In this document: one piece after another, positions 1 to 34,755 of the stretch
How the letters are laid out: each line of letters opens with the position of its first letter
How positions within the stretch are numbered: position 1 is the stretch's first letter
Virus record (IMG/VR): IMGVR_UViG_3300031785_000019
Location: 1-36,321 of that record
From: a virus
DNA: 36,321 nucleotides
Direction: 5' to 3' (one strand)
Notes under the pieces: generated by a model
Seen by the model: only the letters and a program-made list of their open reading frames with translations
Told to the model about the DNA's origin: nothing
Database searches by the model: none
Translations under genes and position numbers: made by a program

Positions 1-38
1 ATAAGAGTAGAACCAAAAAATTAACTGATATATATTTA

Positions 39-153
39 AGTTCCCCATGGCGATTTTTGGCCGCAAAAAGTCTGAAATACTCCCCCCAAAAAGTCTGAAA
101 AAAGTCTGAAATTAGTCTGAAAAAAGTCTGAAAAAATTTCTCCCAGGGGAACT
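39..153. repeat. Inverted repeat flanking the left repeat array
   Basis: AGTTCCCC at 39-46 is matched by its exact reverse complement GGGGAACT at 146-153. With one gap the match extends into TTTA/TAAA on the outer sides. Five of the six AGTCTGAA repeats lie between the arms. The arms are about 100 bp apart, so this looks like a pair of protein sites or a looped structure rather than an RNA hairpin. CCAGGGGAA at 143-151 recurs at 1001-1009. Confidence 0.6.
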
Positions 154-165
154 AAATAGTCTGAA
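69..165 (+). repeat. Six AGTCTGAA direct repeats on an 11-bp grid
   Basis: AGTCTGAA occurs exactly at 69, 92, 103, 114, 125 and 158. The steps are 23, 11, 11, 11 and 33 bp, so almost all copies sit on one face of the helix. Several copies extend to AAAAAGTCTGAAA. The last copy lies inside the palindrome AATAGT-CTGA-ACTATT (155-170). Such phased short repeats are typical of cooperative binding sites (iterons of replication origins, partition sites, operators). A promoter and an RHH gene follow directly. Which role applies cannot be read from sequence alone. Confidence 0.8.
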
Positions 166-172
166 CTATTAT

Positions 173-201
173 TTGAAATAGTAAACTATTTTTGGTAGAA
201 T
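173..201 (+). promoter_or_regulatory. Predicted sigma70-type promoter with palindromic operator
   Basis: TTGAAA (173-178) and TAGAAT (196-201) are separated by 17 bp, each one base from the bacterial consensus. The spacer holds the palindrome TAGTAAACTA (179-188), within the longer AAATAGT-AA-ACTATTT. A repressor bound there would block the promoter. It would drive the genes from 335 rightward, leaving a leader of about 125 bases that shows no gene. The same palindrome recurs at 2649 and 9714. Confidence 0.6.
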
Positions 202-334: not shown

Positions 335-526
335 ATGCCTAGACAGTTAAAGACTCAAAATAAGGGTCGAAATACAGTTGAGGTCAAAGTCACTTTGAAG
401 CCTCAAGAAGCAAAACTTTTAGATGTTGCAATTTTTTTGGATGGATCAGGGTTAACCAGGTCTGCCTTTTTAAAAAAATGTATGTCTGAAAAAGTAGAAA
501 ATACAAGATTGGGAGATATTAAATAA
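335..526 (+). CDS. Small ribbon-helix-helix (RHH) DNA-binding protein
   Basis: This 63-residue basic protein has the RHH layout: a beta strand of alternating residues (VEVKVTL, about 15-21), helix 1 (PQEAKLLDVAIFL), a turn with G-S-G and helix 2 (TRSAFLKKCMSEKV). RHH proteins bind DNA as dimers and usually repress or organise DNA. As the first gene after the AGTCTGAA array and the operator-bearing promoter, it is a natural candidate to bind one of them; this is inference. The ATG follows the recurring ACTTTCCAAA element (325-334) directly, with no Shine-Dalgarno sequence. The next gene overlaps its stop (TAATG). Confidence 0.7.
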   Translation: MPRQLKTQNKGRNTVEVKVTLKPQEAKLLDVAIFLDGSGLTRSAFLKKCMSEKVENTRLGDIK

Positions 527-5588: not shown

Positions 5589-5733
5589 AAAACCAATAAT
5601 AGTTTCATCAAAATATTTAAAAGATGAAGATATAAATGAGCTATGGAAAATTTTAGGTCGTATAGCTGACGATAAAAGAATACCAGTAAATCCTAATGAT
5701 GATGCTGAAATATTTATAGGTTATTTTAATTAA
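5581..5733 (+). CDS. Unrecognised 50-residue protein, end of rightward unit
   Basis: GAGGAGG at 5568-5574 is a strong ribosome binding site for this ATG. The product (MNKKPIIVSSKYL...) has a strand-helix start and a Pro-Asn-rich turn. Its stop overlaps by four bases the stop of the leftward RHH gene, so the two converge tail to tail with no terminator hairpin between them. Confidence 0.6.
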   Translation: MNKKPIIVSSKYLKDEDINELWKILGRIADDKRIPVNPNDDAEIFIGYFN

Positions 5734-6143: not shown

Positions 6144-6656
6144 ATGCCAAAACAGAAACTCACTTTGTATTTAGAGCCAGAACACGTTGAATGGCTTGAA
6201 TCTCAAGTAGATGAAGAACAAAAAGTATCTACTGTAGTCAGAAATCTTATCAGGAAAGCAATGAAGCTTAAATCAAAAAGAAAAACTATTAAGGTTGATG
6301 ATTTTTTTAATACACCATCTTTAGCTCCACAATTTGTGCCTGACGATCTAAAAGAATACACCGATCTTTTAGTTGAATGGTGGACTATCCGATATAAAAA
6401 TAAGGGAACTTGCTCTAGAACAGTTTTTGACCGCATTATTAAAACACTTAGGTCATTTCCATCACAAGATAGAAAAGAAGCTCTTGAGAAAGCTATTACA
6501 GGTGGCTGGAAAGACATCTACCCACTTAAGAAGAGTTACAAACCAGAAGAACCAGAATTTAAGCCTAGATATTTTAAGGCCAGCGATAATGATTTACCAC
6601 CAACATTGGCTGAAATGGGTAAGACCGCTAAAGAACTTATGGAAGGTCAATTATGA
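6144..6656 (+). CDS. RHH protein with helical C-terminal domain, possible replication initiator
   Basis: The protein has 170 residues. Residues 1-45 form an RHH domain (strand KLTLYL, helix EPEHVEWLESQV, helix VSTVVRNLIRKAMKL). After a linker, residues about 75-125 form a helical unit ending LEKAITGGWKDIY, a stretch I associate with phage replisome organiser and related helical proteins. The C-terminal 40 residues are charged and Pro-rich, fit for partner contact. It is the first gene after the TGAATGGC repeats and A/T tract and heads the recombination genes, so an origin-binding role is plausible but unproven. A transcription regulator is the alternative. Overlaps the next gene by ATGA. Confidence 0.6.
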   Translation: MPKQKLTLYLEPEHVEWLESQVDEEQKVSTVVRNLIRKAMKLKSKRKTIKVDDFFNTPSLAPQFVPDDLKEYTDLLVEWWTIRYKNKGTCSRTVFDRIIKTLRSFPSQDRKEALEKAITGGWKDIYPLKKSYKPEEPEFKPRYFKASDNDLPPTLAEMGKTAKELMEGQL

Positions 6657-7372: not shown

Positions 7373-7651
7373 ATGCCAGATTTTCCAAAAAATCCATACA
7401 AAGGTCAGATCTTTTATGATCCTGAGTCTGATACTATCTATGAATATTTTGTTCCCAGAGAGGATGATTATTTTTGTAAAAAGTTAAAAATTAAACCGAA
7501 ATGGGTTGTACCTAGTTATGAAAGTGAATTGGTAAATGGTCTGTTCTCTAAAAATGGAAAGGTTAAATATTTTTCATATAAAAAACTTATAGATGAGTTT
7601 GGTTATACCGCAGAAACTATAGCTGAACTTATGGAAGAGTTAAAAGGGTGA
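7373..7651 (+). CDS. Unrecognised 92-residue protein
   Basis: Starts directly after the nuclease stop. The first 30 residues (FPKNPYKGQIFYDPESDTIYEYF) resemble a small beta module with FPxNPxxGQxF that appears in various phage proteins; the rest is helical with an acidic end. It may assist its nuclease or methylase neighbours, but nothing shows how. The next gene overlaps by four bases (GTGA). Confidence 0.6.
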   Translation: MPDFPKNPYKGQIFYDPESDTIYEYFVPREDDYFCKKLKIKPKWVVPSYESELVNGLFSKNGKVKYFSYKKLIDEFGYTAETIAELMEELKG

Positions 7652-8283
7652 AAATTTTGATTGCCTGTGAATATTCTGGCATTGTTAGAGATGCTTTTGC
7701 AGCAAGAGGACATGATGCTTGGTCTTGCGACATTCTAGATACAGAATCGAAAGGACAACATATTAAAGGTGATGTTCTTAAACACCTCAACAAAGGTTGG
7801 CAAATGATGATTGCACATCCTCCCTGTACTCATCTAGCGACAACATCTGCTCGTTGGTTTGTTGAAGGTAAGAAACCTTTACATCTAAGAACAGAGGCAC
7901 TTTCTTTCGTAAGAACACTAATGGCTGCTCCAATAGAAAGAATATGTATTGAGAATCCTGTCTCAGTTATCTCATCATATATAAGAGAAGCAGATCAAAT
8001 GATTCATCCTTATGAGTTTGGTCATAAGGAATATAAAAGGACTTGTTTATGGCTTAAAAATTTACCTTTACTTAAAGCTACAAACAATGTTTACGAAGAA
8101 ACAAAAAATCTTCCATTAAAAGAAAAACAAAAAACATGGTGGATGGGAGATGGCAAAGTTGATAGAGCTATTGTCCAGAAGAAAAGAAGTAAATTTTTTA
8201 CTGGCATTGCATCAGCTATGGCAGATCAATGGGGAGATGAGACTAGACTTCCTGTTGCTGTTGAACAATTATCTATTTTTTAA
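7648..8283 (+). CDS. Putative DNA cytosine methyltransferase (phage family)
   Basis: A GTG start is set by the GTGA overlap with the gene before. The 211-residue protein opens with a nucleotide-binding strand and loop (ILIACEYSGIVRDAF), then Cys-Asp (SCDIL), HPPCTHL with the PPC motif at 58-60 and IENP at 101-104, the order of C5-cytosine methyltransferases. It belongs to a short family common in phages, usually labelled DNA cytosine methyltransferase, lacking a large target-recognition domain. Activity is not well established. With no restriction enzyme nearby, protection from host restriction is the likely role. Confidence 0.8.
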   Translation: MKILIACEYSGIVRDAFAARGHDAWSCDILDTESKGQHIKGDVLKHLNKGWQMMIAHPPCTHLATTSARWFVEGKKPLHLRTEALSFVRTLMAAPIERICIENPVSVISSYIREADQMIHPYEFGHKEYKRTCLWLKNLPLLKATNNVYEETKNLPLKEKQKTWWMGDGKVDRAIVQKKRSKFFTGIASAMADQWGDETRLPVAVEQLSIF

Positions 8284-8492: not shown

Positions 8493-8659
8493 AATGTTTT
8501 TACAAAGAACTTGATCGCAGAAAAAAGTATTTAATTACTAAAATTCATAATGAGGTGGCTGCTCTTGGAGATAGCTGGTTTAGACATGAAATAACTGATG
8601 AGCAATATTGTTTACGAATACAGGAATTAGATAAACGTATTGCAGATTTACAGGGATGA
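8489..8659 (+). CDS. Unrecognised 56-residue helical protein
   Basis: Two predicted helices separated by a turn at LGDSWFRHEITDEQY; Lys/Arg-rich first half. The pattern of a helical hairpin recalls small phage proteins that pack as coiled coils. It overlaps both neighbours by ATGA, placing it between two methyltransferase genes. Confidence 0.6.
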   Translation: MKCFYKELDRRKKYLITKIHNEVAALGDSWFRHEITDEQYCLRIQELDKRIADLQG

Positions 8660-9357
8660 ATAATATAAATATCTACAATAATGATTGCTATGACATTATT
8701 GATTCATTAGGTAACTTTGATCTGACATTACTTGATCCTCCTTTCCAGGATTGGAATAAAATAAATTTTAAACTATCAAAAAACATAATTGCTTTTTGTA
8801 ATCATAAATCCAGACATCAGGTAGAAAGTTTATTGGGTAAGCCCAGATCAGAATTGATATGGCATTTTGCTGATGGTAGATGGGTAAGTAATGATCTTCC
8901 CAGAATTACACATGATTATATTTATATATATGGTCAGCCAAAATCTGCAAGTGTTGGAGAATATCAGGATACTAAGACTGTAAAAAAAGGTAATGGTTGT
9001 ATTGGTAGTGATAAGTTAGGACAGAGAACTTACAGGCCAAAGCAAAGAAAGCAATTAAATAGTGTATTGATATACCCAAGAAACATGAACAGTAAATTAG
9101 GTGCATGGACAAAACCATATAAATTAATTAAAAATCTTATTGAGTGGTTTCAGCCTAATTCTGTTATAGATCCATTTATGGGATCAGGAGTAGTTATTGA
9201 TGTCTGTAAAGATTTAAATATAGATGCAACTGGTATTGAAATAAATAAAGAATATTTTGATTATGTGAAAGATAGATTAAATACTAATAAATCACAACAA
9301 GAATTATTTGCTCCAACTTATCAATTAAGTTTTCAGACAGGTATAAGAAACTTATGA
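8656..9357 (+). CDS. DNA adenine-N6 or cytosine-N4 methyltransferase, beta class
   Basis: A 233-residue enzyme with catalytic motif IV DPPF at 27-30 near the start and the AdoMet-binding motif DPFMGSG at 172-178 near the end. Catalytic-before-binding is the beta-class order. DPPF fits either N6-adenine or N4-cytosine chemistry. The middle (about 60-150) is the target-recognition part. It would modify phage DNA during replication, like its cytosine-methylase neighbour. Starts in the stop of the previous gene. Confidence 0.88.
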   Translation: MNNINIYNNDCYDIIDSLGNFDLTLLDPPFQDWNKINFKLSKNIIAFCNHKSRHQVESLLGKPRSELIWHFADGRWVSNDLPRITHDYIYIYGQPKSASVGEYQDTKTVKKGNGCIGSDKLGQRTYRPKQRKQLNSVLIYPRNMNSKLGAWTKPYKLIKNLIEWFQPNSVIDPFMGSGVVIDVCKDLNIDATGIEINKEYFDYVKDRLNTNKSQQELFAPTYQLSFQTGIRNL

Positions 9358-34369: not shown

Positions 34370-34755
34370 TACAATCTCACCAATAAAGTAAACAGATATG
34401 TTTGTCCACCTTGTTTTGTATCTATATTAATTATCTGTCCGACTCTGGTAGATCCAGCATAAGTTATTGTAACCTCATCATCAAAAGTTGGTTGATTATC
34501 ACCTATTAAATCAGGTGTAATATATATCTTTGCCTCTCTTCTTTCTCTACCATCAGTTTCCGTAGACCTGATAAATTCTATAGGAACTTTTAAGTCTGAA
34601 TAGGTCGTGTCTATAGTTACATTTTCTCCTTTATCTATGTTGTACATAGAAAGTCCTTTCTTTGTATAAGTAATAGTTGTATCTAAAGAGTTTCCTAAAG
34701 TAGAAACTATATCTTTAGCAACACTTTTTAGTAATGAATCAAGTTGACCTGCCAT
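34369..34755 (-). CDS. Head-closure-like protein
   Basis: 128 residues; helix DSLLKSVAKDIVSTLGNSL then a beta part with YSDLKVPIEFIRST...REAKIYITPDLIG and a final DEVTITYAGSTRVGQIINID, the pattern of small beta-barrel head-completion proteins (lambda FII type). Shares its stop/start bases with both neighbours. Assigned by order and fold impression. Confidence 0.6.
   Translation of the reverse strand: MAGQLDSLLKSVAKDIVSTLGNSLDTTITYTKKGLSMYNIDKGENVTIDTTYSDLKVPIEFIRSTETDGRERREAKIYITPDLIGDNQPTFDDEVTITYAGSTRVGQIINIDTKQGGQTYLFTLLVRL

Follow-up and report, generated by a model that had tools for sequence, protein, structure and literature searches.

Genomic setting of the array

The window, i.e., the whole stretch of 36,321 nucleotides analysed in this study, is a virus record with lambda-type tail genes. 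At its right end, the minus strand encodes the major capsid protein, and the early genes lie at the left end, mostly on the plus strand. The repeat array lies in front of the first early gene (Table 1). Upstream of it, only the end of a 144-aa gene is found, and the rest is absent from the window because the contig begins there. On the close relative L014, the junction is composed of TerL on the minus strand, the divergent 144-aa gene on the plus strand, the array and a 63-aa protein, which is identical to the product of window 335-526. The 144-aa gene ends some 45 bp before the array, and TerL adjoins it. We refer to this gene as terminase-small-subunit-like by its position and the predicted helical fold of its product, in which a long helix comes after a helical N-terminal domain. 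The protein matched no family or structure, and the Foldseek search with its model was uninformative. No known RNA element was found with Rfam.

A 41,291-bp contig from the single cell Prochlorococcus sp. AG-418-M08 (L127, QCMG01000013.1) shows circularly permuted collinearity with the window, which ties the phage group to Prochlorococcus. No close relatives were found among deposited phages at the DNA level, and the TerL identity to them was below 60%. Three other window proteins may be of the RHH type: the protein at 5730 has a Pfam RHH_1 match, and those at 6144 and 13780 resemble RHH proteins by the look of their sequence. The 6144-6656 protein combines an RHH-like N-terminus with a weak match to an O-like replication initiator further in (phrog_678). 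Two DNA methyltransferase genes (7648-8283 and 8656-9357) are also present in the early region.

Table 1. Features at the left end of the window
Feature	Position	Strand	Basis or remark
Terminase-small-subunit-like gene (144 aa), 3' end (last 7 codons and stop)	1-24	+	matches ...VEPKN* of L014:1544-1978
(T)ATATATTTAAG block, directly 3' of the terminase-like gene	29-40	+	invariant, 94/94 loci
First AGTCTGAA unit, off the register by 1 bp	69-76	+	word count
Four AGTCTGAA units 11 bp apart (92, 103, 114, 125)	92-132	+	word count
Final exact AGTCTGAA unit, 33 bp past the previous one; ends 7 bp short of the -35 hexamer	158-165	+	
Sigma-70-like promoter TTGAAA-17-TAGAAT, TG before -10 (extended)	173-201	+	promoter-pattern match
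Palindrome AAATAGTAAACTATTT, overlapping the promoter	176-191	.	sequence
RHH-like protein (63 aa), proposed array reader; putative DNA-facing strand residues E16, K18, T20	335-526	+	

The array and the early promoter in the window

The array in the window is real. All six exact AGTCTGAA copies of the original prediction are present where they had been reported, with steps of 23, 11, 11, 11 and 33 bp, and one extra copy was found at 34593. Against the six copies within 39-201, shuffles (n = 2000) gave at most 1 copy, with a mean of 0.01. In the whole window the word occurs 7 times against 1.85 expected, a count that was reached in 0/100 dinucleotide shuffles, and outside the array it was found only as single copies. 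The copies had been claimed to fall on one face of the DNA; the last five are exactly in an 11-bp register, and the first one (69) is off by 1 bp. Behind most units of the window lies an A-run, phased at 11 bp.

The promoter with a palindrome that had been described next to the last copy was also recovered, starting 8 bp past it, with the hexamers TTGAAA (-35, 173-178) and TAGAAT (-10, 196-201). Two promoter-like matches were found in 1-700 vs 2.8 expected, so that a single match is no better than chance. The AGT of the palindrome (180) is located 22 bp (2 x 11) past the AGT at 158, in the register of the window, and sits between the -35 and -10 boxes, which suggests a natural position for a repressor. 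The element GTTTAC/GTAAAC (window 180-187) was found near the early promoter in 64 of the 94 loci described below vs 16.8 in shuffles, across word classes. The distances of the window units to the -10 box are 104, 93, 82, 71 and 38 bp, all of them 5 mod 11.

The array had further been described as enclosed by an inverted repeat. Both arms exist, AGTTCCCC at 39-46 and GGGGAACT at 146-153, and the repeat is not conserved: the right arm occurs in the window alone (1/94 loci), so we regard the inverted repeat as incidental and reject it as a functional boundary. The ATATATTTAAG block and a C-run (80-87 in the window) follow the terminase-like gene at 94/94 loci with any word. These blocks are possibly a cos/pac element or a transcript end.

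Layout, words and spacing among relatives

Related loci were collected by scans with the terminase-like and RHH proteins, and duplicates were removed, which left 94 non-redundant loci, the window included, each with an array region and an RHH gene. The 586 scan matches are stretches rather than genomes, and later scans mostly returned the same contigs. The layout is common to 94/94 loci and consists of the terminase-like gene, the array region, the promoter and an early operon with one RHH gene. A helically phased array was found at the same place in nearly all of them; 3' of the terminase-like gene, the mean autocorrelation has maxima at lags 10, 20, 30 and 40 (0.43-0.46 vs ~0.27), and periodicity was not found in two odd loci, L051 and L060. 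The word itself is spelled differently among loci, as AGTCTGAA, AGTCCGAA, AGTTCG, AGTCCATA, AGTTCAAA or TTGCCAA. The search for clusters of the same word at the same place thus showed that the flanking genes and the phased array are kept, and that the word is respelled.

The RHH genes of these loci belong to two classes. Class A genes encode 61-63 aa and lie immediately downstream of the promoter, which is the arrangement of the window, and class B genes encode mostly 47-54 aa and lie mostly behind a 110-aa gene. Unit steps are multiples of 11 bp only in 3 loci with the RHH subtype of the window (LDGSGL loop). The other loci have multiples of 10 bp nearly everywhere, and the class B Q steps that were listed include a single deviation; class A also shows some 15- and 16-bp steps. 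In the TTGCC group, the distances of units to the -10 box are nearly all 2 mod 10, and the array length varies by ~20-bp steps. The fixed phase of the units to the -10 box is supporting evidence only, because unit-wise slippage could keep the phase without selection. One locus of a different kind also carries the word: L019:3290-3422 contains twelve tandem 11-bp units with the AGTCTGAA word beside a transposase-like gene on an otherwise unrelated contig, and this perfect tandem repeat probably shares the word by coincidence.

The word follows the predicted reading strand of the RHH protein

The pairing between the word and the strand residues was tallied over loci with a clear dominant word. 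In class A, E16 goes with AGTCTGA (10/10, plus the window), Q16 with AGTCCGA (4/4), D16 with AGTTCG (1/1) and A16-N18-R20 with TTGCC (7/7), i.e., 22/22 overall. The agreement in class B is ~90%, where Q goes with AGTCCA (44/46) and H with AGTTCA (8/10); 2/46 and 2/10, respectively, break the rule, the words of the T loci (n=4) are mixed, and 7 further Q or H loci are without a dominant word. The facing residues were assigned by strand alternation and by analogy to known RHH proteins. The three facing residues never differ between class A pairs of the same word, and 19% of the other residues do; between pairs of different words, 78% of the facing residues differ vs 53% elsewhere. This contrast is significant in the class A permutation test (p = 0.0002; 0.0024 without the TTGCC group). 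The RHH columns that separate AGTCTGA from AGTCCGA loci are 13, 15, 16, 17 and 21, all five in the strand (13-21), and no column of the terminase-like protein separates these loci. Between L204 (contig of L114), with the word AGTTCG, and L207 (contig of L014), seven RHH differences were found, of which E16D is the sole facing one.

The partial Mantel correlation between array and RHH given TerS is 0.64, and that between array and TerS given RHH is 0.21. Adjacency of the array and the RHH gene alone causes some of the covariation. Independent word switches amount to 2 supported independent pairs, or 4 on all branches, and the sign test is not significant. A prediction that was written before two further scans held in 3/3 new loci, all of the commonest class. 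Our reading of these data is that the word is determined by the RHH strand and the pitch by the protein body, the latter part resting on three related loci.

The candidate array reader

The proposed reader is encoded by the first early gene, 335-526. The AlphaFold model of this protein (mean pLDDT 73) contains helices at 23-36 and 42-58, with no DSSP strand before them, and its best VIA-align match is the RHH antitoxin ParD2 (Z 4.8 over 48 residues, rmsd 2.9). Foldseek with the RHH model gave weak matches only, and the protein has no Pfam family over the cut-off. A class A profile found nothing among the sequences of solved structures, where a ParR sequence match was not seen either. The class B profile matched NikR at E 0.02-0.04, ranking below a histone H1x match, and Arc gave no significant match to it. 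The class A and class B profiles aligned with each other in hhalign (E 1.3e-6, probability 90.6), with E16 placed on Q10 of class B. We infer an RHH fold for the 335-526 protein from the moderate-confidence model and these weak profile matches.

Discussion

Several functions can be considered for the array. One is a packaging site (pac or cos) recognised by the terminase small subunit: phased repeats are bound by TerS rings, and terS often contains or adjoins the packaging site. The array is directly 3' of the terminase-like gene with the divergent TerL adjoining, the invariant ATATATTTAAG and C-run blocks (94/94) could be a cleavage site, and the helical N-terminal domain and long helix of the terminase-like model would suit such a role. 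We nevertheless regard packaging as unlikely, as loci with different words have terminase-like proteins that share 96-99% identity with a single query, and the covariation with the RHH protein is the stronger one, the terminase-like protein having no column that separates AGTCTGA from AGTCCGA. By eye, the listed contig ranges do not accumulate ends at the array, the single-cell contig runs through it, and the terminase-like assignment itself is without a family or structure match. The array might also act by DNA curvature, with phased A-tracts upstream of the promoter in place of word recognition, as the A-runs that trail most window units in 11-bp phase might indicate. This is extremely improbable and largely refuted, because the periodicity persists strongly on G and C matches alone (z up to ~28), and a long A-run is missing from AAGTCCATA, the unit consensus of class B.

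A partition site of the ParR/parC type would share its geometry, and its manner of diversification, with the phage arrays. Neither the window nor the related single-cell phage contig yielded a ParA-like ATPase, which speaks against a partition site in the known sense, one of the roles offered originally. The corresponding profile (AAA_31) had no match in the window or contig C13 and detected 14/14 controls; ~5 kb of the phage genome lies outside the window. The ParM-type StbA_N (PF06406) was likewise not found in the window or the related genome, with 0/14 controls detected, a ParM-like match is absent among the window genes scanned, and a tyrosine integrase was not found in the window or the related phage contig; nothing indicates that the phage persists in its host. 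We consider partition to be quite unlikely. A replication origin whose iterons bind a phage initiator would be consistent with short, phased repeats in direct orientation, with their AT-rich surroundings and with a word that is otherwise only single, but the only initiator-like match is the weak O-like one at 6144, some 6 kb off, and the word covaries with an RHH protein in which a replication domain was not found. Iterons near the O-like protein at 6144 were rejected, since no clear array exists there. The replication origin that had been suggested gained no positive evidence and appears very unlikely.

In our interpretation, the array is probably a cooperative, ParR/parC-like RHH operator for the 335-526 protein, which would control the early operon. 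The original suggestions included an operator cluster with one of the RHH proteins as its reader, and this is supported for the 335 protein, with which the word and the spacing change in relatives. At AGTCTGAA units spaced by one helical turn, RHH dimers would place a two-stranded ribbon in the major groove, and they would stack side by side along one DNA face, wrapping or stiffening the DNA. The resulting nucleoprotein array could reach the early promoter at 173-201, and the most likely outcome would be negative autoregulation or a timed shut-off of the early operon. Repression is favoured because several known RHH regulators repress; RHH proteins can also activate, as reported for AmrZ (PMC3325190). 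The word appears to have been respelled several times in the phage family together with the reading strand of the protein, and the relatives would carry different, probably mutually insulated operator specificities. What the sequences show is the array, its constant place, the 10- or 11-bp register and the covariation of word and spacing with the RHH protein; binding, cooperativity, repression over activation and insulation between the variants are what we infer.

MetJ, Arc and CopG are small RHH autoregulators that are cooperative on tandem sites, as is proposed for the array reader. Lys23 and Thr25 of MetJ read the AG of AGACGTCT, which resembles the conserved K-x-T strand and the conserved AGT of the phages. 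MetJ sites are arranged in 8-bp steps, and the known operators of MetJ, Arc and CopG have few units, whereas the phage arrays are long with 10- or 11-bp steps. The literature search on RHH phage operators and MetJ residues yielded nothing useful. ParR is an RHH protein that binds direct repeats of 11 bp (R1) or 10 bp (pB171) beside its own promoter, which it represses, and incompatibility is determined by differences in ParR/parC specificity (PMC9426499, PMC5016525). The phage loci likewise have 10-11 bp direct repeats at one locus next to the promoter of an operon that encodes the putative RHH-type binding protein, and mutually exclusive specificity, as in the ParR/parC families, is proposed for the arrays. 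Unlike ParR/parC, the phage protein has only ~47-63 aa, no motor was detected, no ParR match exists among solved structures, and a few strand-residue changes accompany the respelled words among close relatives. The repressor and the asymmetric stoperator of Cluster A mycobacteriophages diversify together into specificity groups (PMC6550527), similar to the regulator and site described here. However, Cluster A stoperators are scattered over the genome and have a different kind of reader, and the sites described here form one phased array at the early promoter.

Our verdict is that the locus is probably a variant early-operon operator array, with a ParR/parC-like geometry in a phage, no motor detected and words that switch with the proposed reader. 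As a more speculative possibility, the mini-RHH family may have diversified into numerous, mutually insulated specificities through a simple strand-residue code (E/Q/D/H with K-x-T vs A-N-R), with the array and the helical pitch in step, as a label of superinfection compatibility or immunity among co-occurring Prochlorococcus phages. If our interpretation is right, these close relatives amount to a recognition experiment performed by nature: on a constant layout, the DNA word varies in step with a few strand residues, and a pitch of 10 or 11 bp is dictated by the protein body. An RHH-DNA recognition code could then be tested directly with about six short proteins and six arrays, and the family would serve as a source of insulated small regulators. 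It would also indicate how the early switches are kept separate among abundant ocean phages that infect a key phototroph.
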